Part shown: one piece after another, positions 140 to 24,023 of the stretch | Numbering within the stretch: position 1 is the stretch's first letter | Layout of the letters: the number at the start of each line of letters is the position of its first letter | DNA from: an uncultured Bacilli bacterium | Lineage (GTDB): Bacteria; Bacillota_I; Bacilli_A; RF39; UBA660 | Direction of reading: 5' to 3' | Assembly: GCA_944358415.1 (NCBI GenBank) | Contig: CALVRA010000010.1 | Span: 1-42,198, forward strand | Length of the DNA: 42,198 nt | The notes under the pieces: model-generated | Seen by the model: the letters and a program-made list of their open reading frames with translations, nothing else | Databases searched by the model: none | Told to the model about the DNA's origin: nothing | Made by a program: the position numbers and the translations under genes

Positions 140-301
140 TTATACACTGCAAGATTTACCGGAGGTAATCCTTCTTATACTTGAGCCGAGGCTTTTTCCA
201 ATTTCAATTATGAGTTCAAATCCTTTAACGATGGCATTGATAAAAGTTGCTGTAATACTGCCACCGATAATGGATTTTAGTTCACTGTTATTTAATTGCA
301 T
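140..301 (-). CDS. Double-glycine bacteriocin peptide, second of a pair
   Basis: A 53-residue peptide. Its first 14 residues, MQLNNSELKSIIGG, are a classic double-glycine leader with E at -8, L at -7, I at -4 and GG at -2/-1. The 39-residue core is amphipathic or hydrophobic, contains a GxxxG motif (GKSLG), then a basic segment (IRR) and a tail with one Cys (KSCSV). The ATG overlaps the end of the preceding peptide gene by 10 bases, suggesting translational coupling. The exporter upstream has the C39 peptidase that removes such leaders. GxxxG motifs are known from two-peptide class IIb bacteriocins, where they mediate helix-helix contact. Killing activity and target are inferred. No immunity gene was recognised. 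Confidence 0.8.
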   Translation of the reverse strand: MQLNNSELKSIIGGSITATFINAIVKGFELIIEIGKSLGSSIRRITSGKSCSV

Positions 302-423
302 TTTTCAGGATTTAAAAAGCCTTCGACAATACTAATTAAGAAAGTTATGGCTCCGCCAATAGCGGCCCATATTCCATAACCTCCACCAGTTACTTGCATG
401 AGTTCTTTTTGATTTAAATACAT
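292..423 (-). CDS. Double-glycine bacteriocin peptide, first of a pair
   Basis: A 43-residue peptide starting 10 bases after the exporter stop codon, with a good ribosome binding site (AGAAAGGATAAA before ATG). Its leader MYLNQKELMQVTGG has the same 14-residue length and the same E-L, V and GG positions as the leader of the next peptide. The core of about 29 residues starts GYGIWAAIGG, continues with a hydrophobic helix and ends NPEKCN. The core resembles the neighbouring peptide around IGGxIT and IVxGF, so the two genes probably arose by duplication. The core has a second internal GG, which may be an alternative cut site. A pore-forming or signalling role is inferred from family and context. 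Confidence 0.8.
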   Translation of the reverse strand: MYLNQKELMQVTGGGYGIWAAIGGAITFLISIVEGFLNPEKCN

Positions 424-433
424 TTTATCCTTT

Positions 434-2449
434 CTAGTTATTCCGCTTTTGATTTAAAACAACTTTACCTTTATCAATTTTGATATATTGGTCAAATAAG
501 TCTAGGTTATCTAATCTATGCGATATATATATTATTGTTTTTTGAGAGTATTTTTTTAAAAGTTTTTTTAGAATTTTTCTTTCCATATCACTGCTGACTT
601 GACTTAGGGCTTCATCTAATATTAAGATGTTAAAGTTACCAAGGGCTCTAGCTAAGGCTATTCTTTGTTTTTGGCCATCTGAAAGATTGAAACCATTTTC
701 TTCTATTAAGCTATATTTATTTTCCCTAAACAATTTATCTATTTCACAAATATTAATATATTTTATGTTTTCTGATTTTAGGTTAATATTATCAATTAAA
801 CTTCCAGTGAAAAAGAATTCTTTTGAAGAAACGTATATGATATCTTGAAAGGAGTAATATTTAATATCTTTATTACCAATAGTTATGGTTCCTTCATAGT
901 CATCATAATAGCCTTTTAAAATTTTTAATAAAGTGCTTTTCCCACTACCACTTGGTCCAGTAATTAAAACTTTGTCATTTGATTTTATTTCTAAGTTTAT
1001 ATTTGATAGTATATTTACCTTTTTATCATAAGAAAAATTTATATTTTGCATAATAATATCACCTTTTGAAGTGGTATTTATAAGCGATTTTTGTTTATAA
1101 TCTAAGAATAAAATACTGGACAAGGAATATTTTAGTTCATCTAAACTATAATTAAATTCAAAAATGTTTTTAATTATTCTTAAAACTGAAGAAGTTAGAA
1201 TGTAGTATATTAAACATTCACTAATAGAAGTGTTTATTAATAAAATTATTATTATAAATAAAATAAAATCATCTAAATTATTTTTTATAAAAGAATATTT
1301 TTCATTTTGAGTTAGACATTTTTTTATACTATTATTTGAATTACTATAATGATTTTTAAAGGTATTAAATATTTTTGAATTAATGTTTAGATTTTTGATG
1401 GTCTCAAATCCACTAATAGATTCTATAATATAGGAGTTTAAACAATATTTTTGTCTTGTCATATCATCAATGAGAGTTTTTTTAAATTTTTTTTGCATTA
1501 TAGAGTATATAAAGAAGTAAAAGAAAAGTAAAATATATAAATTATAATTAATATTTATGATGATAAGTAGTACTATTAATATAGGCAAATCTATCATAAG
1601 TATCTGAGAGAAATGGATAATCGCACTTTTTAAAATATTTGAATCACTAAAGTAACTTGTGATTTCCCCAGTTGTTTTACGGCGGTAATAACGATAAGGG
1701 AGGTTTATTATTTTCCAAAAAATATCCAAAAGTAGCTGCTTATCTAACTGTAGATTAAATTTTATAACTAGTTTATTTTTTATGTATAAAAAGAGATTTT
1801 TAAGAAAAAACACAATTAAGAAACTAAAAAGAATGGATGCAATTATTTTTTGATTAAAGTTTGTCAAAACAAATGGAATAAAAAGTGTGGATAGGATATT
1901 TAATATATTTACAAGTAAGGAAATAATATTTAATAGGATAATTATTTTAATATTTTTTTTAATATAATACCAGATAAATTTTAAGGTATTTGGTTCTTTT
2001 TCGTGTTCAATAGGTTTAGTAGGATACATTTGAATGGATACTCCACTCCATATCTGCTTAAATTCTTTAAAGGTCATTTGTTTTAAAGTGCGTGCTGGAT
2101 CGGCTATTAATAATGTTTGTTTTTTTAAATTTACCTTATATATGACTATATAATGATGGTAGGAGTAATTTACAATCACATGAGCAATACAAGGTAATTT
2201 TAAGTTTTCTAAATTCTTTGTTTTAATCCCATAGCTATTAAAACCTAATGTTTTTAAAGTTTCAACAATATTATAAGCGGTGGTTCCATTTTGGTTTGTA
2301 TGCATCATTTCGCTTAATTTATCTATGTTGATATAACCTTTGTAATATTTTAATATCATTAATGTGCATGCTGGTCCACATTCTTTGATTCCTCTTTGTT
2401 TAATAAAAGGATATTTTTTGATGTTTTCACCTCCCTTATATATTAACAT
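434..2449 (-). CDS. Peptidase-containing ABC exporter for double-glycine peptides
   Basis: A full-length (about 660-671 residues) bacteriocin exporter of the ComA/LagD type. In order: an N-terminal C39 peptidase with catalytic Cys in IKECGPAC, its His in YSYHHYIV and Asp in IADPA; a transmembrane domain of about six helices (roughly residues 160-440); and a nucleotide-binding domain with Walker A GPSGSGKS, signature LSDGQKQR, Walker B ILILDEA and switch His in YISHR. It should cut the leaders of the two peptides encoded immediately downstream and export the cores. The ATG at 2449 has no good ribosome binding site. A strong one (AAGGGAGGTG) is followed 7 bases later by ATC (2422-2420), exactly where homologues begin (M)KKYPFIKQ, so translation may start at ATC. 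Confidence 0.9.
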   Translation of the reverse strand: MLIYKGGENIKKYPFIKQRGIKECGPACTLMILKYYKGYINIDKLSEMMHTNQNGTTAYNIVETLKTLGFNSYGIKTKNLENLKLPCIAHVIVNYSYHHYIVIYKVNLKKQTLLIADPARTLKQMTFKEFKQIWSGVSIQMYPTKPIEHEKEPNTLKFIWYYIKKNIKIIILLNIISLLVNILNILSTLFIPFVLTNFNQKIIASILFSFLIVFFLKNLFLYIKNKLVIKFNLQLDKQLLLDIFWKIINLPYRYYRRKTTGEITSYFSDSNILKSAIIHFSQILMIDLPILIVLLIIININYNLYILLFFYFFIYSIMQKKFKKTLIDDMTRQKYCLNSYIIESISGFETIKNLNINSKIFNTFKNHYSNSNNSIKKCLTQNEKYSFIKNNLDDFILFIIIILLINTSISECLIYYILTSSVLRIIKNIFEFNYSLDELKYSLSSILFLDYKQKSLINTTSKGDIIMQNINFSYDKKVNILSNINLEIKSNDKVLITGPSGSGKSTLLKILKGYYDDYEGTITIGNKDIKYYSFQDIIYVSSKEFFFTGSLIDNINLKSENIKYINICEIDKLFRENKYSLIEENGFNLSDGQKQRIALARALGNFNILILDEALSQVSSDMERKILKKLLKKYSQKTIIYISHRLDNLDLFDQYIKIDKGKVVLNQKRNN

Positions 2450-2492: not shown

Positions 2493-3014
2493 TTATTTTC
2501 CGTAAATTTTTATGTTTTTCGGTCCATAACTTTTATTTTTTAATAATTTTAAGTTAGTAATTGGCTCTATTTTTTCATATTCACAAATAATGATACCATT
2601 TTCATTTAAAAGATTTCTTTCTTCGATTATTTTTAGAGCTTTGTTTAACTGATTACTTTGGTAAGGAGGATCTAAAAAGATAATATCAAATTTTTCCTTT
2701 GTTTCTTTTAGAAATTTTTTATAGTCTATATTGATAATATTTATATCTTCTTTGATATTTACACTATTTTCTTTTATTGTTTTAATAGCTATTTGGTTAT
2801 TATCAATTAAATAACATTTTTTAGCACCATTACTGATAGCTTCTAATCCAAGGGCACCACTACCGGCAAATAAGTCTAAGACGGTACTACCGTTTATATG
2901 ATTTTGAATCATGGCAAAAAGGGATTCTTTGACTCTATCCATAGTTGGCCTAGTACCGTCAATATTGAATCCATTTAATTTTTTTCCTTTATATTTTCCA
3001 CTGATAATGCGCAT
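2493..3014 (-). CDS. rsmD: 16S rRNA (guanine-966 N2)-methyltransferase RsmD
   Basis: A 173-residue class I SAM-dependent methyltransferase. It starts MRIISGKYKGKKL, as RsmD proteins do, has the SAM-binding loop VLDLFAGSGALGLEA and the catalytic DPPY motif (IIFLDPPYQ). It methylates G966 of 16S rRNA during 30S assembly. The length is normal. The ribosome binding site GGTGAG precedes the ATG. It lies 28 bases after ylbE, as in the Bacillus ylbD-ylbE-...-rsmD order, and is probably in the same transcript. Confidence 0.93.
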   Translation of the reverse strand: MRIISGKYKGKKLNGFNIDGTRPTMDRVKESLFAMIQNHINGSTVLDLFAGSGALGLEAISNGAKKCYLIDNNQIAIKTIKENSVNIKEDINIINIDYKKFLKETKEKFDIIFLDPPYQSNQLNKALKIIEERNLLNENGIIICEYEKIEPITNLKLLKNKSYGPKNIKIYGK

Positions 3015-3042: not shown

Positions 3043-3264
3043 TCATTTGAAAGTTCCCAAAACTTTTTCTAACATTTCAAAAGTATTTATGGCTTTTTCT
3101 AATCTATCCATTTTATATAGTTTATATGTTTGTTTGACTTCGTTTTCAAAGTTTTTAAATTCATTTGGGTTTCTATTTAAGATTTTATACCAATGGGAAT
3201 TTTTTCTAAGATGTCTAAGATAGTATTCATTTTCTTTGATTTTAAACTGAAGTTCTAAGGTCAT
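3043..3264 (-). CDS. ylbE: YlbE-like protein
   Basis: A 73-residue protein with the YlbE signature of a conserved WYKILNRNP motif followed by a short helical tail. Its ATG overlaps the stop of ylbD (TAATG), so the two are translationally coupled. Synteny with ylbD and rsmD supports the call. The function of YlbE is not established; no transmembrane segment or catalytic motif is visible. Confidence 0.8.
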   Translation of the reverse strand: MTLELQFKIKENEYYLRHLRKNSHWYKILNRNPNEFKNFENEVKQTYKLYKMDRLEKAINTFEMLEKVLGTFK

Positions 3265-3602
3265 TAGTCATCAAAATGTTTATAAATTGGTCTAGGTTTA
3301 TGGGTGTTTTGAGGCATTTGTTTATTTATTGACATATCTTGAAGGAGACTTAATACTCTTTGAAGACTATTGACTCCGTTTTGAATACCATCTAAATCAA
3401 TTCCTTTGATAAAATTATTTAAATCAAAGTTTGTTTGTTTTGGGGGTTCGGTTTTTAAATATTCTTGCCAAGCGCTTTTATCTTCACCATATAAATCATA
3501 TATTTCGTAAAATTTTTGCCAGGTCATTTTACCATCTTTAACATGTTTTAATAATATGGGGTTATTTTTGACAAAATCTTTAAATTTTTCTTTGGTTTCC
3601 AT
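3264..3602 (-). CDS. ylbD: YlbD-like protein
   Basis: A 112-residue protein. The first 55 residues (FKDFVKNNPILLKHVKDGKM, then TWQKFYEIYDLYGED) resemble YlbD, annotated in Bacillus as a putative spore coat protein. The start at 3602 is chosen because AGGTGAT lies 5 bases upstream; the frame stays open for 15 more codons without support. The middle carries repeated hydrophobic residues typical of a short helix pair. It overlaps ylbE by one base. A coat role here is not shown by the sequence. Confidence 0.75.
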   Translation of the reverse strand: METKEKFKDFVKNNPILLKHVKDGKMTWQKFYEIYDLYGEDKSAWQEYLKTEPPKQTNFDLNNFIKGIDLDGIQNGVNSLQRVLSLLQDMSINKQMPQNTHKPRPIYKHFDD

Positions 3603-3617
3603 TTTATCACCTATATT

Positions 3618-3647
3618 AATATATTCTTTATAAGAACAAAATATCAA
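3618..3647 (-). promoter_or_regulatory. Likely promoter of ylbD-ylbE-rsmD
   Basis: The minus strand has TTGATA (3642-3647) and TATATT (3618-3623), 18 bases apart, upstream of the ylbD ribosome binding site. Confidence 0.5.
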
Positions 3648-3659
3648 ATAAATTTAACA

Positions 3660-3938
3660 TTAGCTTGCCTCACAGTAAGCTCTTTCTAAATCTAACAAAC
3701 TATTTTTAAGCGAGCAGCTATCCACTTCTTTTAGCCACTCTTTTTCTTTAGATAATGATAGGATTAATTTTATTTGATCAAAAGCACTTTTACTTTTAAC
3801 TATTTCTTTATATTCTTTTATTTTATCATCTAAAAAATAATTATATATAAATCTTGCGCGCCCTATAGTTTTATTAATTAACTGTTCTTGCTCTTTTGTT
3901 GGATAAAGTCTAAACATATAACCTTTTAATATTTTCAT
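3660..3938 (-). pseudogene. N-terminal remnant of an IS200/IS605-family TnpB
   Basis: A 92-residue frame starting MKILKGYMFRLYPTKEQEQL and containing ARFIYNYFL and the segment WLKEVDSCSLKNSLLDLERAY. These are the N-terminal helix-turn-helix and wedge region of TnpB/OrfB. Intact TnpB is about 350-400 residues; here translation stops right after the conserved AY, and all RuvC and zinc-finger parts are missing. No TnpA, right end or remaining tnpB sequence was found downstream, where the ylbD promoter begins. The fragment keeps an intact promoter and ribosome binding site (GAAGGTGATGCA before ATG), so a short DNA-binding protein could still be made. The start at 3938 replaces an upstream GTG. 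Confidence 0.75.
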
Positions 3939-4017
3939 TGCATCACCTTCTATCTTTGGTGTATTCACTATAACACATACTATTTATTTTACAAAGCAAA
4001 TTCCTAGTATATGAAAA
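3926..4017 (-). repeat. Promoter/leader cassette, copy A (before the TnpB remnant)
   Basis: This stretch is nearly identical to 23883-24023 in front of recX. It runs from the first 14 coding bases (ATGAAAATATTAAA) back through the ribosome binding site and the promoter to the tail of the preceding gene's terminator. Copy A lacks about 45 bases that copy B carries. The promoter on the minus strand is TTGTAA (3989-3994), 16 bases, and extended -10 TGTTATAGT (TATAGT at 3967-3972). Confidence 0.85.
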
Positions 4018-4034
4018 AAAGACCTGATGGTCTT
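4013..4034 (-). terminator. Terminator of the secreted TasA-like gene
   Basis: The minus strand reads AAGACC ATCA GGTCTT followed by seven T. The hairpin includes part of the stop codon of the gene before it. Confidence 0.85.
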
Positions 4035-4524
4035 AGTTTTGAATATAATTTAATTTTATAGTATACGAAGCTTCTCTAGCCTCAGGCTGTGAGGTAACTT
4101 TATCATTATAAGAAACAGTGACATCAAATGTTTGGGACTTTCCTGCTTCTAATAAATCATTTTGATTTATGCCTTTAGTTTCAAAGACGATAGCTGGGTT
4201 AGTAGATGGGGTTTCTTGGATATTTTTAACTTTAGCATCGACGTTTCCATTATTGGTGACGGTTACTTCATAAGTCATACTATCTCCAGGAGATATGAGT
4301 GATGTTTTAAAGGTGGCCGAAGTACCTGAGGTTATTGGTTCAATTACTTTTGAGGCACTACCAGTTATGTTTTTTACGGTTATATTTGTGATTTTTATAT
4401 CCCAGTTACTTGTTATATTAGAGGTTCCAGTAATTTTTAACTGTGAGGTAAAAGCCGCATAGCCTATGGCTAATATACAAATACTGGCAATTAATATAGT
4501 TATTATTAGATAATTTTTTTTCAT
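4033..4524 (-). CDS. TasA/camelysin-like secreted protein (SipW-type signal peptide)
   Basis: A 163-residue protein with a signal peptide (hydrophobic residues 5-24, then GYAAFTSQL) followed by a WD(I/V)xxxxI segment and a beta-rich domain with SPGDSMTYEVTVTNNG and a C-terminal LNYIQ. It is the same family as the four paralogues at 16400-18996. TasA/camelysin proteins are exported by SipW-type signal peptidases and form surface fibres; a matching peptidase is encoded at 15128-16270. This copy stands alone, with its own extended -10 (TGATATAAT, 4542-4547) and terminator. Its position behind the promoter cassette and TnpB remnant suggests local rearrangement. Fibre formation is inferred. Confidence 0.8.
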   Translation of the reverse strand: MKKNYLIITILIASICILAIGYAAFTSQLKITGTSNITSNWDIKITNITVKNITGSASKVIEPITSGTSATFKTSLISPGDSMTYEVTVTNNGNVDAKVKNIQETPSTNPAIVFETKGINQNDLLEAGKSQTFDVTVSYNDKVTSQPEAREASYTIKLNYIQN

Positions 4525-4566
4525 ATTCTCACCCTAATATGATTATATCATATTTTTTGATTATTT

Positions 4567-4594
4567 TAGAAAAAAGTCCTACTAAGTAAGACTT
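4567..4594 (-). terminator. Terminator after the ltaS operon
   Basis: The minus strand reads AAGTCTTAC TTA GTAGGACTT with one G-U pair, then six T. It overlaps the end of the last gene. Confidence 0.85.
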
Positions 4595-5226
4595 TTTTCA
4601 CTCATAGAAGCAACTTCTATTTTTTTACCACTGTGAATTAGGATTAAACTTCCTTCAGTTTGATAACCTAAATCTTCTTTATATTCAGTTTTGAAGTTAT
4701 ATATATAAGCTTTATCATCGGTATTTTCACCATATTTGTAGCTTTCATTTTTGACTTTTGTAACTGTTACATTAGTAACTTCTGGAAGTGTTTGGTCACG
4801 CTCACCATAAACATCGCTTTCAACGGATTTATACATAGAGTCCATAGCATATTTTTCAAAGTCATTTTGATAGTTTGAGTAGACAAATTCTTTACCACCT
4901 ACATCGTTTTTGCTGATTTTATTATCTAAGTTAAAGAAGTCAGCGACAAACATTTGAGCGACTAAGGAAGCATATTTTTCTTCATCAACTTCTTTTTCGT
5001 TTAAGGTTTTTTCAAGTTCTTTGAAAAGTTTTTTATAGTAAGCTGTAGCACTATCTTTTAAGGTATATCCATAGGCTTCGATATTGGCTACTTCTTTTAC
5101 TTCTTTAGTTTTTGTTTCTTTATGAGTTAATTTTCCAAGTGCGAGAATACCTCCAGCAATTATTAAAATTAATAATATAATGACAATAGCTATTCTTTTA
5201 ACATTTAATTTACGTTTCTTTTTCAT
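4582..5226 (-). CDS. Membrane-anchored extracytoplasmic protein downstream of ltaS
   Basis: A 214-residue protein not assigned to a named family. It has a basic N-terminus, one membrane helix (about residues 10-30, IVIILLILIIAGGILALG), a charged linker and an acidic, helical-then-beta extracellular domain with the notable stretch VAQMFVADFFNLDNKISKND. Its ATG overlaps the ltaS stop codon by 4 bases and its ribosome binding site (AAAGGAGGGC) lies inside ltaS, so the two are made together. This suggests a partner or regulator of lipoteichoic acid synthesis, which is inference. Anchored proteins of this layout often follow envelope-enzyme genes in this group. Confidence 0.7.
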   Translation of the reverse strand: MKKKRKLNVKRIAIVIILLILIIAGGILALGKLTHKETKTKEVKEVANIEAYGYTLKDSATAYYKKLFKELEKTLNEKEVDEEKYASLVAQMFVADFFNLDNKISKNDVGGKEFVYSNYQNDFEKYAMDSMYKSVESDVYGERDQTLPEVTNVTVTKVKNESYKYGENTDDKAYIYNFKTEYKEDLGYQTEGSLILIHSGKKIEVASMSEKSLT

Positions 5227-15127: not shown

Positions 15128-16270
15128 TTATGATATTGCACCACTTAACCATACTGATGGATAACCAATATATGGTACAACAAACGATACTTTTCCTATT
15201 ACATCTTCTAAAGCTACACTAGTAGCATCAATGGTGTTATTATGGTCACCTTTGGTGACAAACAATTTATTGCCATATTCATCGTTAGTGATATCAACAA
15301 TACGGTGAACAACATATTTAGTACCACTGACGAATTGAATAATATCGCCTTTTTTTAATTCATCTTTTTCTCTGTTATTTAATTTATTGATTATAACAGC
15401 GTCACCCCTGTTAAATGTCGGTGACATACTACCTGATAAAACTGCAATTGGCTGATATTTGAATAATCCCATAACGAAACCAGCTAATAGTGCGATGAAA
15501 GCAAATATTGGAACATACACAACTGGATTATATTTGCGTCTTTCTCTTTTTGACAGTCTTTCAGATTTATTTACATGAACATAATTCATATAAATGTAGA
15601 CAGCTAGTGGCAAGATAACACCTAGTATAGCTGTTGCGAACCAATCTAAACTTGGAATGATTGGAACAATGAACGGTGGGACTGTGACAAAAAGCCTATA
15701 TATAATTGAAAATTTAGCTCCACCTATATATACTAGATAAGTACATAAGGCACTTTCTAATATCAATGGTATTAAGGTCGTTGATGTATAAATAAATCCA
15801 TCTTTTAATGTTAAAAAGTTATTAAAAAAATTAGAATAATTTAAATTAAATATTGTAAATATAATGGTCATCAGTATAAAATTAATGACTTTTTTCTTTT
15901 CGTTTTTGACCAAAGCTTCTCTAATAAATTCTTGGAAAAATATTAATCCGGCAAAACTCCAAAGGTTTTTTATAATACTCAAGATGTCTTTAGCATAAGG
16001 TGTTTTCTCAAAGCCAAATATTAATCCAAGTAAGAAATAAACAATAATATAAATTATTAATGCAATTATTAAACTTTGTGTTTTGTCTTGCTTTCCCTTA
16101 ACTCTAATGGTGGCATCTTTGCTTAAAAAAATTGCAGCAGCACACATAGCTATCCAAATAAGTGGATGGATAATTTCATTATAGTAGTCAAGATTTAAGG
16201 GACTTATAACAAGGACGTTTAAAATCAAATATATAATTAACAAACTATATATTATAAGATTTTTTTTCAT
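15128..16270 (-). CDS. sipW: SipW-type signal peptidase I with N-terminal membrane extension
   Basis: A 380-residue protein. The C-terminal third is an ER/archaeal-type S26 domain: catalytic Ser in LSGSMSP (about S281), RGDAVI, His in place of the bacterial Lys in YVVHRIV (about H322), and the conserved TKGDHN. SipW enzymes use this Ser-His arrangement to cut TasA-type precursors. Unlike SipW of Bacillus (about 190 residues), this has about 200 extra residues with some six or seven membrane helices. The start at 16270 (second ATG) is set by AAAGGGG at the right distance. The substrates are probably the four TasA-like proteins encoded immediately upstream on the same strand. Confidence 0.88.
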   Translation of the reverse strand: MKKNLIIYSLLIIYLILNVLVISPLNLDYYNEIIHPLIWIAMCAAAIFLSKDATIRVKGKQDKTQSLIIALIIYIIVYFLLGLIFGFEKTPYAKDILSIIKNLWSFAGLIFFQEFIREALVKNEKKKVINFILMTIIFTIFNLNYSNFFNNFLTLKDGFIYTSTTLIPLILESALCTYLVYIGGAKFSIIYRLFVTVPPFIVPIIPSLDWFATAILGVILPLAVYIYMNYVHVNKSERLSKRERRKYNPVVYVPIFAFIALLAGFVMGLFKYQPIAVLSGSMSPTFNRGDAVIINKLNNREKDELKKGDIIQFVSGTKYVVHRIVDITNDEYGNKLFVTKGDHNNTIDATSVALEDVIGKVSFVVPYIGYPSVWLSGAIS

Positions 16271-16317
16271 AAACATACCCCTTTTTTATTTTTTTCCTTA
16301 CTATCTTACTATAATGA

Positions 16318-16346
16318 ATTATAACATATCCTTTAAAAGTTTACAA
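16318..16346 (-). promoter_or_regulatory. Promoter of sipW-DUF5305
   Basis: On the minus strand TTGTAA (16341-16346), 17 bases, TATAAT (16318-16323) with an extended TG. It shows the operon is transcribed separately from the paralogue genes. Confidence 0.85.
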
Positions 16347-16384
16347 CTAAATATATTAAAAAAGTTAATTTTTGTTTTTTGATT

Positions 16385-16411
16385 TACGAAAAAAGCTCAT
16401 TATTGAGCTTG
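16385..16411 (-). terminator. Terminator of TasA-like paralogue 4
   Basis: The minus strand reads AAGCTCA ATAA TGAGCTT then six T, overlapping the gene end at 16400. Confidence 0.85.
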
Positions 16412-16960
16412 AACATAATTTAGACTGACTGTTAAACTAGCTGTTGAGTCTTTAGCATTAGCATTGCCTTCGGCTTTATCGACAAATTCTGCTTTAATTG
16501 TTAAAGTAGCAGTACCAGTTTCAGCTTGTAAAACATTATCGCCTGGACTAGTGACTGTATACTTAATATTTCCATCTTTACTTATTGCAGTTACTCTATC
16601 TGCTTGAACGGTTACATCATTTCCTGATAAAGTCATTTCATTTAATTTTGCATTGATATTTCCAGCATTAACAATAGGCACATTATAAGTAATGGTATCT
16701 CCAGGACTGATTAATTCAGCTTCGAATGTAGCAGTTAATCCACCAGGTTCTACAGTGATATCACCAGTTGGAGTTGTTCCCATAAGACTACCAACTTGAT
16801 AGTTTTCAGCTCCTTCTTGGAAATGAACGTCCCATTTAGAAGTTATTGTTGCGTTTCCTTCAATATTTAATTGTTGGGCGAATGCAGCATAACCTACTGT
16901 CATAACTAATACTACCGCAAGTAAGGCGACGATTAATGCGTTTTTGTGTTTTGTTTCCAT
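16400..16960 (-). CDS. TasA/camelysin-like secreted protein, paralogue 4
   Basis: A 186-residue secreted protein. The signal peptide METKHKNALIVALLAVV, with GYAAFAQQL at the cut site (AFA/Q), is nearly the same as in the next two genes. The mature part has SKWDVHF, SPGDTITYNVPIVNAGNINA and LNYVQ near the end, as in TasA/camelysin. The start at 16960 is set by AAGGAGGG upstream; earlier codons lack support. It has its own promoter (16987-17015) and terminator, so each paralogue can be dosed separately. It sits next to sipW, which probably cuts its signal peptide. A fibre or biofilm role is inferred from the family. Confidence 0.82.
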   Translation of the reverse strand: METKHKNALIVALLAVVLVMTVGYAAFAQQLNIEGNATITSKWDVHFQEGAENYQVGSLMGTTPTGDITVEPGGLTATFEAELISPGDTITYNVPIVNAGNINAKLNEMTLSGNDVTVQADRVTAISKDGNIKYTVTSPGDNVLQAETGTATLTIKAEFVDKAEGNANAKDSTASLTVSLNYVQAQ

Positions 16961-16986
16961 TATTACCCTCCTTCTACTATATTTAT

Positions 16987-17015
16987 AATATACCAATTTT
17001 AAGAAATTATTTCAA
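16987..17015 (-). promoter_or_regulatory. Promoter of TasA-like paralogue 4
   Basis: On the minus strand TTGAAA (17010-17015), 17 bases, TATATT (16987-16992). Confidence 0.75.
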
Positions 17016-17027
17016 TACAATTAAAAA

Positions 17028-17053
17028 GAAAAGCTTTGAAACTTTTCTTTGTT
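17028..17053 (-). terminator. Terminator of TasA-like paralogue 3
   Basis: The minus strand has AAAGAAAAG and CTTTTCTTT around an 8-base loop, then T; it lies just after the stop at 17062. Confidence 0.75.
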
Positions 17054-17061
17054 TACACAAA

Positions 17062-17622
17062 TTATGCTTGAGTAGCTTTTGTTGTAACAGTAATGCTTGA
17101 TGTAGTAGTATCTCCAACGCTTTGAGCATTATTAGCAAATTCAGCTGTAACAGTCATTGTAGCAGTTTCACCAGCATTAATAGTGGCTGGAGCTGGATTA
17201 GTTACTGTGAAGATAATATTTCCTTCTTGAATGATTAAAGCATCAGGATTAGAATCGTGTCCATCACCGTTCAATGAAAGAACTGGAGTTCCTAAGTCTG
17301 CAGCAATAGTACCTTCATTCATAATAGTTAAAGTAAATGTTACTTTGTCACCAGGTTGATTTAATGTTGCATTGATAGTTGCACTATATTCATCTCCTGG
17401 AGTAAAGCTGACTGTTCCTTGTGGCTGAACTGTTCCGCCTGCTCCGGTTGCATATTGAATATCTGTAGTTTTTGCAGTATCGAAATGAACATCCCATGTT
17501 GATTCAATAGTAGCTGTACCATTGATAGTTAAAGTTTGAGCAAAAGCTGCATAACCCACTGCCATAACAAATACTACTGCAAGTAATGCTCCAATTAACG
17601 CATTTTTGTGTTTACTTTCCAT
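17062..17622 (-). CDS. TasA/camelysin-like secreted protein, paralogue 3
   Basis: A 186-residue protein with the shared signal peptide (MESKHKNALIGALLAVVFV, cut after AFA), then TLTINGTATIESTWDVHFD and a beta-rich domain with LNQPGDKVTFTLTIMNEGT, NIIFTVTNPAPATINAGE and a Thr-rich end (TTSSITVTTKATQA). It is closest to the neighbour at 17745-18320: both share the PGDK(V)xFTLTI block, the Thr-rich tail and a 40-bp 5' leader, so they are probably a recent duplication. It lacks the LNYIQ/LNYVQ end of the other paralogues. Ribosome binding site AGGAGGGAAG. Confidence 0.82.
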   Translation of the reverse strand: MESKHKNALIGALLAVVFVMAVGYAAFAQTLTINGTATIESTWDVHFDTAKTTDIQYATGAGGTVQPQGTVSFTPGDEYSATINATLNQPGDKVTFTLTIMNEGTIAADLGTPVLSLNGDGHDSNPDALIIQEGNIIFTVTNPAPATINAGETATMTVTAEFANNAQSVGDTTTSSITVTTKATQA

Positions 17623-17632
17623 TTTCTTCCCT

Positions 17633-17672
17633 CCTATAATATTCTAAGTAGTTTCTCTACTCTATATTGATG
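17633..17672 (-). repeat. Duplicated 5' leader, copy 1, with small stem-loop
   Basis: Forty bases differing at one position from 18334-18373. On the minus strand it begins just after the -10 box, so it is the mRNA 5' end, and it can form AGTAG-AGAAA-CTACT before the ribosome binding site. Confidence 0.8.
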
Positions 17673-17698
17673 ATATCACAAATTATAAAAGTCTGCAA
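17670..17698 (-). promoter_or_regulatory. Promoter of TasA-like paralogue 3
   Basis: On the minus strand TTGCAG (17693-17698), 17 bases, TATCAT (17670-17675). Confidence 0.7.
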
Positions 17699-17703
17699 GA
17701 ACT

Positions 17704-17738
17704 AAAAAAGAAAAACTAAAATGTTTTTCTCTTTTTTA
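17704..17738 (-). terminator. Terminator of TasA-like paralogue 2
   Basis: The minus strand has GAGAAAAAC, a 6-base loop and GTTTTTC, then six T, shortly after the stop at 17745. Confidence 0.75.
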
Positions 17739-17744
17739 CACAAA

Positions 17745-18320
17745 TTATGCAGCAGCTTGAGTAGCTATCGTAGTTACAGTGATGCTAGATTCAGTAGTTG
17801 TTCCAACACTTTGAGCATTATTATCAAACTCGGCAGTTACTGTCATTGTAGCTTCTTCGCCACCAGCAATTGCAGCTTCGCTTGGTCTAGTAACTGTGAA
17901 AATGATGTTTCCTTTTTTAACAATTAGTGGGTCAACATTTTCATCACCTTCAACAGTAGCTACAACTGGGTCTGCTAAAGAAGCATTAATTGTTCCATCG
18001 TTTTTGATAGTTAAAGTAAATTTAACTTTATCACCAGGTTGATTTAATGTTGCGTTAATTGTAGCTGTTTGTCCAGTACCATCATAACCAATGGTTCCTA
18101 ATGGAGCTGTAGTTCCACCAGTACCAGTAGTAGCATCTACAACACCTGCTCCTGTTTTTTTTGTAGTGTCATAATGCACATTCCAGTTTTGTGATTGTTC
18201 AGTAACTGTGGCTTTTGAATTGATAGTTAAAGTTTGAGCAAAGGCTGCATAACCTACTGCCATTACTAATACTACTGCAACTAAAGCTACTATTAAAACG
18301 TTTTTGTGTTTACTCTCCAT
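17745..18320 (-). CDS. TasA/camelysin-like secreted protein, paralogue 2
   Basis: A 191-residue protein with the common signal peptide (MESKHKNVLIVALVAVVLV, cut after AFA), then QTLTINSKATVTEQSQNWNV, a Gly/Thr-rich insert (GVVDATTGTGGTTAPLGTIG) and a beta-rich domain with LNQPGDKVKFTLTIKNDGT and a TTTESSITVTTIATQAAA end. It is the nearest relative of paralogue 3. It has its own promoter (18371-18399), a 5' leader shared with paralogue 3, and its own terminator. As with its relatives, the role as a SipW-processed surface protein is inferred from the signal peptide and the neighbouring peptidase. Confidence 0.82.
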   Translation of the reverse strand: MESKHKNVLIVALVAVVLVMAVGYAAFAQTLTINSKATVTEQSQNWNVHYDTTKKTGAGVVDATTGTGGTTAPLGTIGYDGTGQTATINATLNQPGDKVKFTLTIKNDGTINASLADPVVATVEGDENVDPLIVKKGNIIFTVTRPSEAAIAGGEEATMTVTAEFDNNAQSVGTTTESSITVTTIATQAAA

Positions 18321-18333
18321 TTTTTCCTTCCTT

Positions 18334-18373
18334 CCTATAATATTCTAAGTAGTTTCCCTACTCTATATTGATG
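18334..18373 (-). repeat. Duplicated 5' leader, copy 2
   Basis: Same 40 bases as 17633-17672 with one change, which lies in the loop of the AGTAG/CTACT stem and leaves the stem intact. Confidence 0.8.
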
Positions 18374-18399
18374 TTAACATATTTTAAAAAACAATTCAA
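18371..18399 (-). promoter_or_regulatory. Promoter of TasA-like paralogue 2
   Basis: On the minus strand TTGAAT (18394-18399), 17 bases, TAACAT (18371-18376) with an extended TG. Confidence 0.7.
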
Positions 18400-18475
18400 G
18401 AAGCTTTAAAAAAAAATTATGTTTTTTTATGTCACCTTTATTTTTATAAGTTTTTTTATGTAAAGTTTTGAAAAG

Positions 18476-18500
18476 AAAAAAAGCTCTACTTGAGCTTAAG
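18476..18500 (-). terminator. Terminator of TasA-like paralogue 1
   Basis: The minus strand reads AAGCTC AAGTA GAGCTT then seven T. Confidence 0.85.
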
Positions 18501-18996
18501 CTTGAACATATCCAAGAATCATTTTTAAACTTCCAGTTTTTTCTTTTGGATCAGTTGTATATTGATCATTAAATGATACTGTTACAGAAAATGTTTGAGT
18601 TTGGTTACTTTCAATAACATCATCTTGAGCGATGTTTGAATAGGTATATTTTATGGCATCGTTTTGAGAATTATCAAAGATTAATGAGTTTAATTTAGCA
18701 TCTACTGTTCCACCATTTTTGACAGTGATGTTATAAGTGACAGCGCTTGATGGAATTATAAGAGTAGCTTCAAAATCAGCGCTTAGTTTATCAGTTCCAA
18801 CCGTGGCAGAAACATTTTTTCCTTGATTTATTTCATTTGCAACTTCGATATTTTCAATATGAACATCCCAAGTTGAGTCAATGGTAGCAGTACCAGTGAT
18901 ATTTAGGCTTTGAACAAAAGCAGAATAACCAACAGCCATAACAAAGACTACGGCTAATAATATTAATATTAATGACGATTTATGTGTTTCATCCAT
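18496..18996 (-). CDS. TasA/camelysin-like secreted protein, paralogue 1
   Basis: A 166-residue protein with signal peptide MDETHKSSLILILLAVVFV, GYSAFVQSLNITGTATID and STWDVHI, followed by the beta domain (AVTYNITVKNGGTVDAKLNS) and LGYVQA end. The site before Q is SAFVQ rather than AAFAQ, so cleavage may be weaker or shifted. In sequence and end motif it resembles the solitary copy at 4033-4524 more than its neighbours at 17062 and 17745. It has its own promoter (19021-19049) and terminator. Confidence 0.8.
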   Translation of the reverse strand: MDETHKSSLILILLAVVFVMAVGYSAFVQSLNITGTATIDSTWDVHIENIEVANEINQGKNVSATVGTDKLSADFEATLIIPSSAVTYNITVKNGGTVDAKLNSLIFDNSQNDAIKYTYSNIAQDDVIESNQTQTFSVTVSFNDQYTTDPKEKTGSLKMILGYVQA

Positions 18997-22153: not shown

Positions 22154-23140
22154 ATGAATAAGAAAAAATTATTCGCTTTTGTTTTAGCCGGAAGTTTACT
22201 ACTTACAGGTTGTGGTAAGGTTGCGACTTTAAAAAATGGCGAAGAAGTTGTAGCTAAATTAAATGGTAAAACTATTACAGCAGAAGAATTATTTGATGAA
22301 CTTAAGAATCAAGGAGGCGCTACTACTTTAACAAATATGATTGATGAGTTTATTGTAAATAAGGAAATTAAAACTGATGAGGATGCGGAAAGTTATGCAG
22401 ATTCTCAGTTAAATTCTTACAAACAATCTTATCAAAGTTACGGACAGGATTTTAATGCGGCTTTAAAATCAGCTGGTTATACTGGTGAAGATGATTTTAA
22501 AGATGCTTTAGTTACCGAGTATAAAAAACAAAAGGTTACTGAAAATTATGTTAAAGATGAACTTTCTGATTCAGAAATTGAAAAGTATTATGATGATAAT
22601 ATTTTTGGTGATATTGAGGCTAGGCACATTTTAATTAGTCCAAACACTGATGATGATATGAGTGATGAAGAAAAGGAAAAAGCTGAAGAAAAAGCTAAAA
22701 AAGAAGCTGAAGACATTATTAAAAAGTTAGATGATGGAGAAAAGTTTGCAGATTTAGCTAAAGAATATTCTGATGATGAAGGAACAGCTAGTAAGGGTGG
22801 TAAGCTTACAGTTACTTATGGTGCAGTTGTTGATGAATTTTGGGATGGCGTTAATGATTTAAAAGATGGCGAGTATTCTAAAGAGCCTGTTAAATCTGAA
22901 TATGGTTATCACATTATTTACCGTATTAAACAAAAAGAAAAACCATCGCTAGATGATGTTCGTGATGATGTTATTGATGATTTAGTTCAAGAAAAAATGA
23001 ATAATGACACAACTTTACAAACAAAAGCATTAGTTGCTTTAAGAAGAAAATATGATTTAGAAATTTCTGATGATAAACTTAAAAAATCTTATGATAATTC
23101 TGTTGACAGCGCACTTAGTCAAACAAACAGTTCAAATTAA
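22154..23140 (+). CDS. prsA: PrsA-type extracytoplasmic foldase lipoprotein
   Basis: A 328-residue lipoprotein. The signal peptide ends in LLLTGC, so Cys20 is lipidated. The SurA-like N-terminal part is followed by a PpiC-type parvulin domain (about 150-250) with EARHILISPN, FADLAKEYSDD, GGKLTVTYG and YGYHIIYRI. It should help exported proteins fold on the outer side of the membrane, for which the secreted TasA-like proteins are possible clients. The charged stretch around EEKEKAEEKAKKEAED is a coiled-coil linker. Ribosome binding site AAAGGAAG. A terminator shared with recX overlaps its end. Confidence 0.92.
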   Translation: MNKKKLFAFVLAGSLLLTGCGKVATLKNGEEVVAKLNGKTITAEELFDELKNQGGATTLTNMIDEFIVNKEIKTDEDAESYADSQLNSYKQSYQSYGQDFNAALKSAGYTGEDDFKDALVTEYKKQKVTENYVKDELSDSEIEKYYDDNIFGDIEARHILISPNTDDDMSDEEKEKAEEKAKKEAEDIIKKLDDGEKFADLAKEYSDDEGTASKGGKLTVTYGAVVDEFWDGVNDLKDGEYSKEPVKSEYGYHIIYRIKQKEKPSLDDVRDDVIDDLVQEKMNNDTTLQTKALVALRRKYDLEISDDKLKKSYDNSVDSALSQTNSSN

Positions 23141-23153
23141 TGAACTGTTTTTT
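23125..23153. terminator. Bidirectional terminator between prsA and recX
   Basis: A 10-bp perfect stem AAACAGTTCA/TGAACTGTTT with a 6-base loop and T tract; it spans the last codons of both converging genes, which overlap by 4 bases. Confidence 0.9.
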
Positions 23154-23895
23154 CAATGAAATTATTTATTTCTTCGGTGGTAAAGCCTTTGGCATAAAGT
23201 TTTTGTTTCAATTTGTTTTTTAAGGTATAACCATCATATTTTGATTTTAATTTATTATATATTTTTATCATTTCGTTTTCTAATTTACTGGTGTCTATTT
23301 GGATGTTATCTAAATGATTATAAATATCTTCTGTGCTATATCCAAGATTTGAAAGATACATGCTTGTTTTTTGTTTAAAAATATAGGCAGTGTCTTTATT
23401 TGTTTTTAATCTTTTTTGAATGATTTTTTCTATTTTTTGGTCTATTTTATCTTGGGTAAAATTAGATAGGGCTTTTTCGATAAAAATATTATCTATATGA
23501 TTATCTTCTAGTTCTTTTTTTATTTTATATGGGCCATCCAAGGTAAGATTTACTTTATCGTTTGTAAAGCTTTCGGCAAAGAGCTCATCATTAATTAAAT
23601 TTAATTCTTTTAGTTTATTTATGATTTTTTCTGGATTTGACATTTCGTTTTTAGTGAGGAATTTTTCTATTTCATATGTGCTTCTAATTTTTCGATTTAT
23701 CATTTTTAAGACTTTATCATAATTTTCATAAAAAACGTTTTCTTCTTTTATTTGGTTTAATTCTTTATTTGTGATATTTTTTTTATAAAGAATGTTTGTG
23801 TTTATTAAAACGTGTTCGTTAATAGATATTTTTTCATTATTATCTAAAGTTATTTGATATTTATTTTTTTGTTTTTTGATATTTAATATTTTCAT
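23137..23895 (-). CDS. recX: Regulatory protein RecX
   Basis: A 252-residue RecX. It has the three-helix repeats typical of the family: MINRKIRSTYEIEKFLTKNE, LKELNLINDELFAESFTND and the C-terminal LKQKLYAKGFTTEEINNFIE. RecX binds and modulates RecA filaments. The start at 23895 (MKILNIKKQ) is chosen because the GAAGGCGATG site precedes it and because family members begin here; an upstream GTG in frame lies in the promoter region. The first 14 coding bases and everything upstream are part of the cassette also found before the TnpB remnant. The promoter is TTTACA, 17 bases, TATAGT. Confidence 0.88.
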   Translation of the reverse strand: MKILNIKKQKNKYQITLDNNEKISINEHVLINTNILYKKNITNKELNQIKEENVFYENYDKVLKMINRKIRSTYEIEKFLTKNEMSNPEKIINKLKELNLINDELFAESFTNDKVNLTLDGPYKIKKELEDNHIDNIFIEKALSNFTQDKIDQKIEKIIQKRLKTNKDTAYIFKQKTSMYLSNLGYSTEDIYNHLDNIQIDTSKLENEMIKIYNKLKSKYDGYTLKNKLKQKLYAKGFTTEEINNFIEKTVH

Positions 23896-24023
23896 AGCAT
23901 CGCCTTCTATCTTTGATGTATTCACTATAACACATACTATTTATTTTGTAAAGTTTTTTACGAACGAATGTTTTTAATTATTTAAAATTTATTTTTGCAA
24001 AGCAAATTTCTAGTATATAAAAA
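23883..24023 (-). repeat. Promoter/leader cassette, copy B (before recX)
   Basis: Matches 3926-4017 with few changes, but holds about 45 extra bases (about 23952-23997) between the promoter and the outer AAGCAAATT(T/C)CTAGTATAT segment. Confidence 0.85.

Follow-up and report, generated by a model that had tools for sequence, protein, structure and literature searches.

Do two very small genes lying between an exporter and rpsU in an uncultured Bacilli bacterium (GTDB lineage Bacilli_A; RF39; UBA660) encode a two-peptide bacteriocin, a peptide signal or something else? A first-pass annotation had proposed the first two possibilities for one stretch of contig CALVRA010000010.1 (assembly GCA_944358415.1), which we analysed at its whole length of 42,198 nucleotides and refer to as the window. 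Bacteriocin-type loci are usually regarded as patchy and strain-specific. The cassette studied here is carried by almost all members of a large family of uncultured bacteria, so that it appears as a core trait passed on by inheritance and not as a weapon of the usual patchy kind; no description of the exporter-pepB-pepA locus was found in the literature searched. On balance, we are inclined to believe that the locus represents an ancient, vertically inherited, putatively membrane-active two-peptide system of the class IIb type.

Layout of the locus

The two small genes were found where the annotation had placed them, and the whole locus is read from the minus strand. The order in the direction of transcription is the exporter (434-2449), pepB (292-423), pepA (140-301), a terminator-like hairpin (119-141) and the 5′ end of rpsU (about 1-36), which is cut by the contig edge. 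The pepB and pepA genes overlap by 10 bases, such that pepA starts inside the end of pepB. The hairpin, bearing a 9-bp stem and a T tract directly 3′ of pepA, came from a consensus scan that detected five hairpins in the region vs. 1.0 expected in shuffles. Since this hairpin (141-119) is present along with a promoter-like site for rpsU (93-65; TTGCAA-17-TATAAT with TG), the operon apparently ends at pepA, and the promoter-like site, a consensus match only, may separate rpsU from the peptide operon. The conserved downstream neighbour of the cassette is rpsU, while the conserved upstream neighbours are genes for an rsmD-like methyltransferase (2493-3014, minus strand) and a YlbF-like small protein (3264-3647, minus strand), both named by eye. 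Elsewhere in the window, two unrelated minus-strand frames (23137-23925 and the transposase-fragment-like 3660-3968) have a common start, MNT(P/S)KIEGDAMKIL, which suggests a repeated upstream element.

Translation of pepB and pepA

The frames are short and, according to the first-pass annotation, unannotated, and one could suppose that they are not genes at all. Comparison with the nearest relative (L009) clearly showed the pattern of coding sequences, with dN/dS of 0.07 for pepA and 0.22 for pepB (exporter, 0.18; rsmD, 0.09). Most changes fall at third codon positions; in pepA, there are 5, 3 and 20 substitutions at positions 1, 2 and 3, respectively. The peptides were also found beside the same exporter in relatives, in the order exporter-pepB-pepA, in each of the 29 loci retrieved from the window's genus and in 57 of the 60 loci from other genera. 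Because both frames accompany the same exporter so widely and change mostly at third positions, they are not a matter of chance. In addition, pepA is kept in 267 of 291 family genomes and is directly followed by the terminator-like hairpin. Codon patterns and conservation thus refute the supposition that the frames are not genes, whose probability we put at practically nil, and by these signatures both pepA and pepB are translated. Neither of the two refuting outcomes named in the first-pass annotation, peptides missing beside the exporter in relatives or substitution patterns of untranslated frames, was seen. The cores are no more variable than the leaders (mean entropy, core vs. leader: 1.73 vs. 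1.89 in pepA and 1.86 vs. 1.97 in pepB; at least 130 distinct sequences each).

The exporter

The exporter (671 aa) contains, as had been claimed, an intact C39 peptidase domain (PF03412; 110 bits, E=8e-32 in the Pfam search). An alignment of nine exporters showed no variation at C24, H99 and D117, in the Walker A and Walker B motifs or in the LSxGQ region. The protein also matches TIGR01193 (E=2e-92), though at 311 bits, under the model's cut-off of 524. Its best solved relatives are the ABC-type bacteriocin transporter 4ry2 (E=1e-72) and ComA (8hf7, 8hf4). The exporter, the only C39 match found in the window genome, is presumed to cut off both leaders behind the double glycine and to export the cores. 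The C39 domain is not special to the family, because in the class sample it was present not only in 25 of the 25 listed genomes of the window's family but also in 61 genomes of other families. In families f4 and f15, such domains are frequent.

Peptide sequences and motifs

The pepB product (43 aa) is composed of a 14-aa GG leader and a 29-aa hydrophobic core ending with LNPEKCN, and the pepA product (53 aa) of a 14-aa GG leader and a 39-aa core, so that the core sizes of the pair are about 30-40 residues. The two leaders, MYLNQKELMQVTGG and MQLNNSELKSIIGG, share the identical spacing E7-L8-x4-G13-G14, in line with the first-pass description. In the family (at least 130 sequences each), the two glycines are conserved in 98 and 100% of pepA and in 95 and 98% of pepB sequences. 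Both window peptides are predicted to be helical (pLDDT 74-76).

The core of the window pepA bears GxxxG (G35-G39), RR at positions 43-44 and a single Cys at 51. The window pepB, in contrast, has SxxxG in place of GxxxG. Across the family, strict GxxxG occurs in 131 of 133 pepA and 115 of 130 pepB sequences, and small-x3-small in 129 of 130 pepB. The single Cys noted near both ends was likewise seen, one per window peptide, and a Cys lies within the last 8 residues in 133/133 pepA and 128/130 pepB sequences. Its presence in nearly all cores suggests that a disulfide may link the two peptides.

The idea that the cores look alike stood only in part. The IGGxIT resemblance is not homologous, as the GG of pepA is the cleavage site and that of pepB lies inside the core. 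The pepA and pepB profiles align only over the leaders and about 19 residues beyond; homology of the cores was rejected, with only this leader-proximal part aligning.

Family models match the peptides mainly via the leader. The window pepB is narrowly above the cut-off of TIGR03949 (class IIb, lactobin A/cerein 7B family; 22.2 vs. 21.5 bits), the match being confined to the leader and the first core residues, while the window pepA is below it, is not listed for this model and reached no curated family-model cut-off. Leader matches to TIGR03949 were obtained for 26 of 28 pepB and 10 of 29 pepA sequences. An EF-G-like resemblance of pepA (NCBIfam E=0.003; TetQ in PDB E=0.03; 8-9 of 29 members) was taken as chance, because the matches fall in short open frames and rest on the pattern GG-x-I...F-I..A..KG.

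A few family members match the ComC, BlpC or EntF models weakly. Together with ComA among the closest solved relatives of the exporter, and with the fact that C39 exporters also export pheromones, this could point to a pheromone system in which one or both cores are sensed by a receptor encoded elsewhere in the genome. However, the loci read show no conserved association of the cassette with a histidine kinase/response regulator pair of the ComC/BlpC type or with any other kinase or regulator, and two peptides with GxxxG faces are more than a pheromone would require. Typical pheromones are also shorter than these membrane-like cores of about 31 and 40 residues. We consider such a system very improbable.

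Distribution across genomes

The 267 family genomes found with the single window pepA as a query represent 144 of 150 genera, and the matches are short open frames, almost always in one copy. Whereas the peptide profiles were built from the window's own family, the single-sequence search is free of this circularity. Both approaches detected pepA in 95% of the near-complete family genomes (196/206 in the single-sequence search and 205/216 with the profile). In the order sample, the pepA profile matched 226 of 241 genomes, all in the window's family; the class sample gave matches in 35 of the 38 genomes of the family and in one of 258 others, the latter match being weak. The only non-family matches in the phylum sample were three weak ones, all in family f4, and no cassette peptide was matched in plasmid and phage collections. 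As a separate observation, f4 genomes (code 4) have, next to rplU-rpmA-like genes, frames for proteins of 95-130 aa with GG-type leaders (minus strand; L202 2911-3198, L203 2539-2931 and L204 2816-3166), some with pepA-like residues after the GG.

Many of the genomes surveyed are incomplete. In 22 family genomes, pepA was not matched. Six of these have a C39 exporter; the other 16 lack it, and 10 of them also lack a yqeY match, so that the absence may in part reflect assembly, and we do not regard these 22 as true losses throughout, since much may be missing sequence. Most of the six exporters are cut at, or end near, contig edges; in L167, negative by search, an intact exporter lies next to divergent frames resembling pepA and pepB.

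Gene order and inheritance

In most congeneric loci, the cassette is preceded by rsmD and followed by rpsU-yqeY, a few loci being cut by contig ends or rearranged, and across the family it is often sited between the same genes. In the three exceptions to the gene order in other genera, the exporter or pepB is missing from the stretch read, and two of these lie at a contig edge. One genus (L128) has a methyltransferase-like gene (4211-4894) inserted between pepB and pepA. Among congeners, one locus (L016) carries a radical SAM-like frame (4455-5024) downstream of pepA, and four (L009, L013, L014 and L027) have collagen-like GPVGPV repeat frames near or beyond yqeY.

Within the window's genus, which forms one group in the exporter tree, exporter and peptide distances track those of rsmD, yqeY and ylbF (r of 0.59-0.78 over the tested pairs; 0/2000 permutations), and these correlations clearly point to vertical inheritance. 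Between distant genera, vertical inheritance is only weakly shown: the exporter correlates with yqeY (r=0.50; 1/2000) and less so with rsmD (r=0.39; 92/2000), and the correlations of the exporter with ylbF and of the peptides with rsmD were not significant.

These data bear on the purpose of the pair. The cassette is usually in single copy and in constant order, its inheritance in the window's genus follows that of neighbouring housekeeping genes, it left no match in plasmid or phage collections, and its cores are conserved as much as its leaders. All this would suit a secreted pair conserved for a purpose other than killing, namely as a factor in envelope function, adhesion, biofilm formation or kin recognition that matters to the family's way of life. 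There is a precedent in Synechococcus elongatus, where the GG-motif proteins EbfG1-4 and the peptidase transporter PteB enable biofilm formation (PMC4997328). The two systems are alike in combining small GG-motif proteins with a peptidase transporter in a non-bacteriocin role, but the cyanobacterial one has four such proteins, and the likeness drawn here is at the level of description.

A third gene, pepC

In many genera, a frame of about 42-60 codons, here called pepC, lies just 3′ of pepA, in most cases overlapping its end. The product has a lysine-rich start, one hydrophobic membrane helix, then G-x3-G and R, and no GG leader. Members were picked out by eye, and a profile made from them was then used as a query; nearly all frames chosen only by hydrophobicity and by overlap with, or position relative to, pepA carry GxxxG, and mean pN is lower than mean pS in six genera. 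The pepC profile aligns to the last 26 residues of pepA (E=7e-8) and gave no alignment with pepB.

The presence of pepC is bimodal and scattered over the exporter tree: it occurs in 28 of the 60 loci from other genera, whereas the 29 loci retrieved from the window's genus all lack it. Searches of the rest of the window genome and of 21 congeners gave no convincing pepC either; a pepC acting in trans in this genus was dismissed, since the recurring matches are pepA itself or, in two loci, TadE-like pilus genes (by eye). In its build, pepC is similar to the small immunity proteins of class IIb systems and is a candidate for one. The first-pass statement that no immunity gene is recognised thus holds for the window's genus, but many other genera do have a candidate. 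Many genera other than the window's also have a one-helix protein of about 140 aa between the exporter and pepB; its HlyD-like assignment, made from topology, was dropped as no Pfam family matched.

A probable class IIb-type pair and its possible role

Class IIb bacteriocins consist of two helical peptides in which GxxxG motifs have a defining role (PMC6957408, PMC8538875). The locus has the corresponding features: an adjacent pair of small precursors, GG leaders on both, GxxxG or a GxxxG-like motif in each core, and a C39 peptidase/ABC exporter. We therefore favour a class IIb-type pair with pepC conferring immunity by mimicry. Of the two roles that the first-pass annotation had offered, the two-peptide, double-glycine, C39-exported anatomy fits the bacteriocin, and a signal seems less likely.

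A close parallel is gallocin A of Streptococcus gallolyticus, which likewise has two adjacent GG-leader peptides exported by an ABC transporter and, behind them, a small gene that encodes an immunity peptide (PMC10100652); pepC would be its candidate counterpart. The gene order gllA2-gllA1-gip matches pepB-pepA-pepC, and in the published model, the gallocin immunity peptide mimics the peptides of the bacteriocin (PMC10100652). The gallocin cores, however, are 42 and 60 aa long, with two Cys each and modelled disulfide hairpins (PMC10100652). In the present pair, a core usually has one Cys and is predicted to form one helix, and almost the whole family carries the cassette. Carnobacteriocin XY offers another class IIb pair with CbnZ, a 42-aa one-helix immunity protein encoded just downstream of cbnXY; other such proteins have 52-55 aa (PMC6957408). 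In size, in its one helix and in its place downstream, pepC is similar (PMC6957408), but CbnXY is devoid of Cys (PMC10100652), and the window's genus has no pepC.

In the favoured reading, after the C39 domain has cut both leaders behind the double glycine and the exporter has released the cores, pepB would form a hydrophobic membrane helix and pepA a long helix with a cationic, Cys-bearing tail. The two would pair via their GxxxG or GxxxG-like faces and make the membranes of competing, probably closely related, cells leaky. In many genera, pepC may sit in the producer membrane and interfere with this pairing, thereby providing immunity; the window's genus may have lost pepC or never had it, and its cells would be protected otherwise or not be harmed.

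Several findings speak against a weapon of this kind. Near-universal single-copy presence, strong purifying selection and conserved order are unlike arms-race bacteriocins, the cores vary no more than the leaders, and the window's genus keeps the peptides in all 29 loci without pepC. Because nearly all members have the cassette, selection on it is purifying and one genus manages without pepC, we still consider a non-killing role, in which pepC would be a membrane anchor or partner, and rate it as possible but rather unlikely. Against it are the class IIb anatomy down to GxxxG in both peptides, and the one-helix downstream frame with the size, the position and, by analogy with gallocin A, the mimicry of known immunity proteins. 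We hold with similar reserve the related proposal that one vertically inherited secreted two-peptide membrane system is a core trait of the family with a non-killing use, its pepC partner being derived from, or converging on, the pepA tail.

The significance of the class IIb-type pair lies in its near-universal occurrence, as a conserved cassette under purifying selection, across at least 144 sampled genera of one reduced-genome Bacilli family: either a single ancestral weapon has been retained by the whole family, or anatomy of the class IIb type fulfils some other basic function. The presence or absence of pepC over dozens of loci provides a natural test of immunity by mimicry of the gallocin A type.

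Another set of genes was noticed in the window at 15128-18996, where a signal-peptidase-like gene is followed, upstream in sequence, by several proteins sharing the start M..KHKN..LI.ALLAVV..M.VGYAAFAQ. By eye, they resemble SipW and TasA/camelysin substrates, and a similar protein is encoded at 4033-4524.
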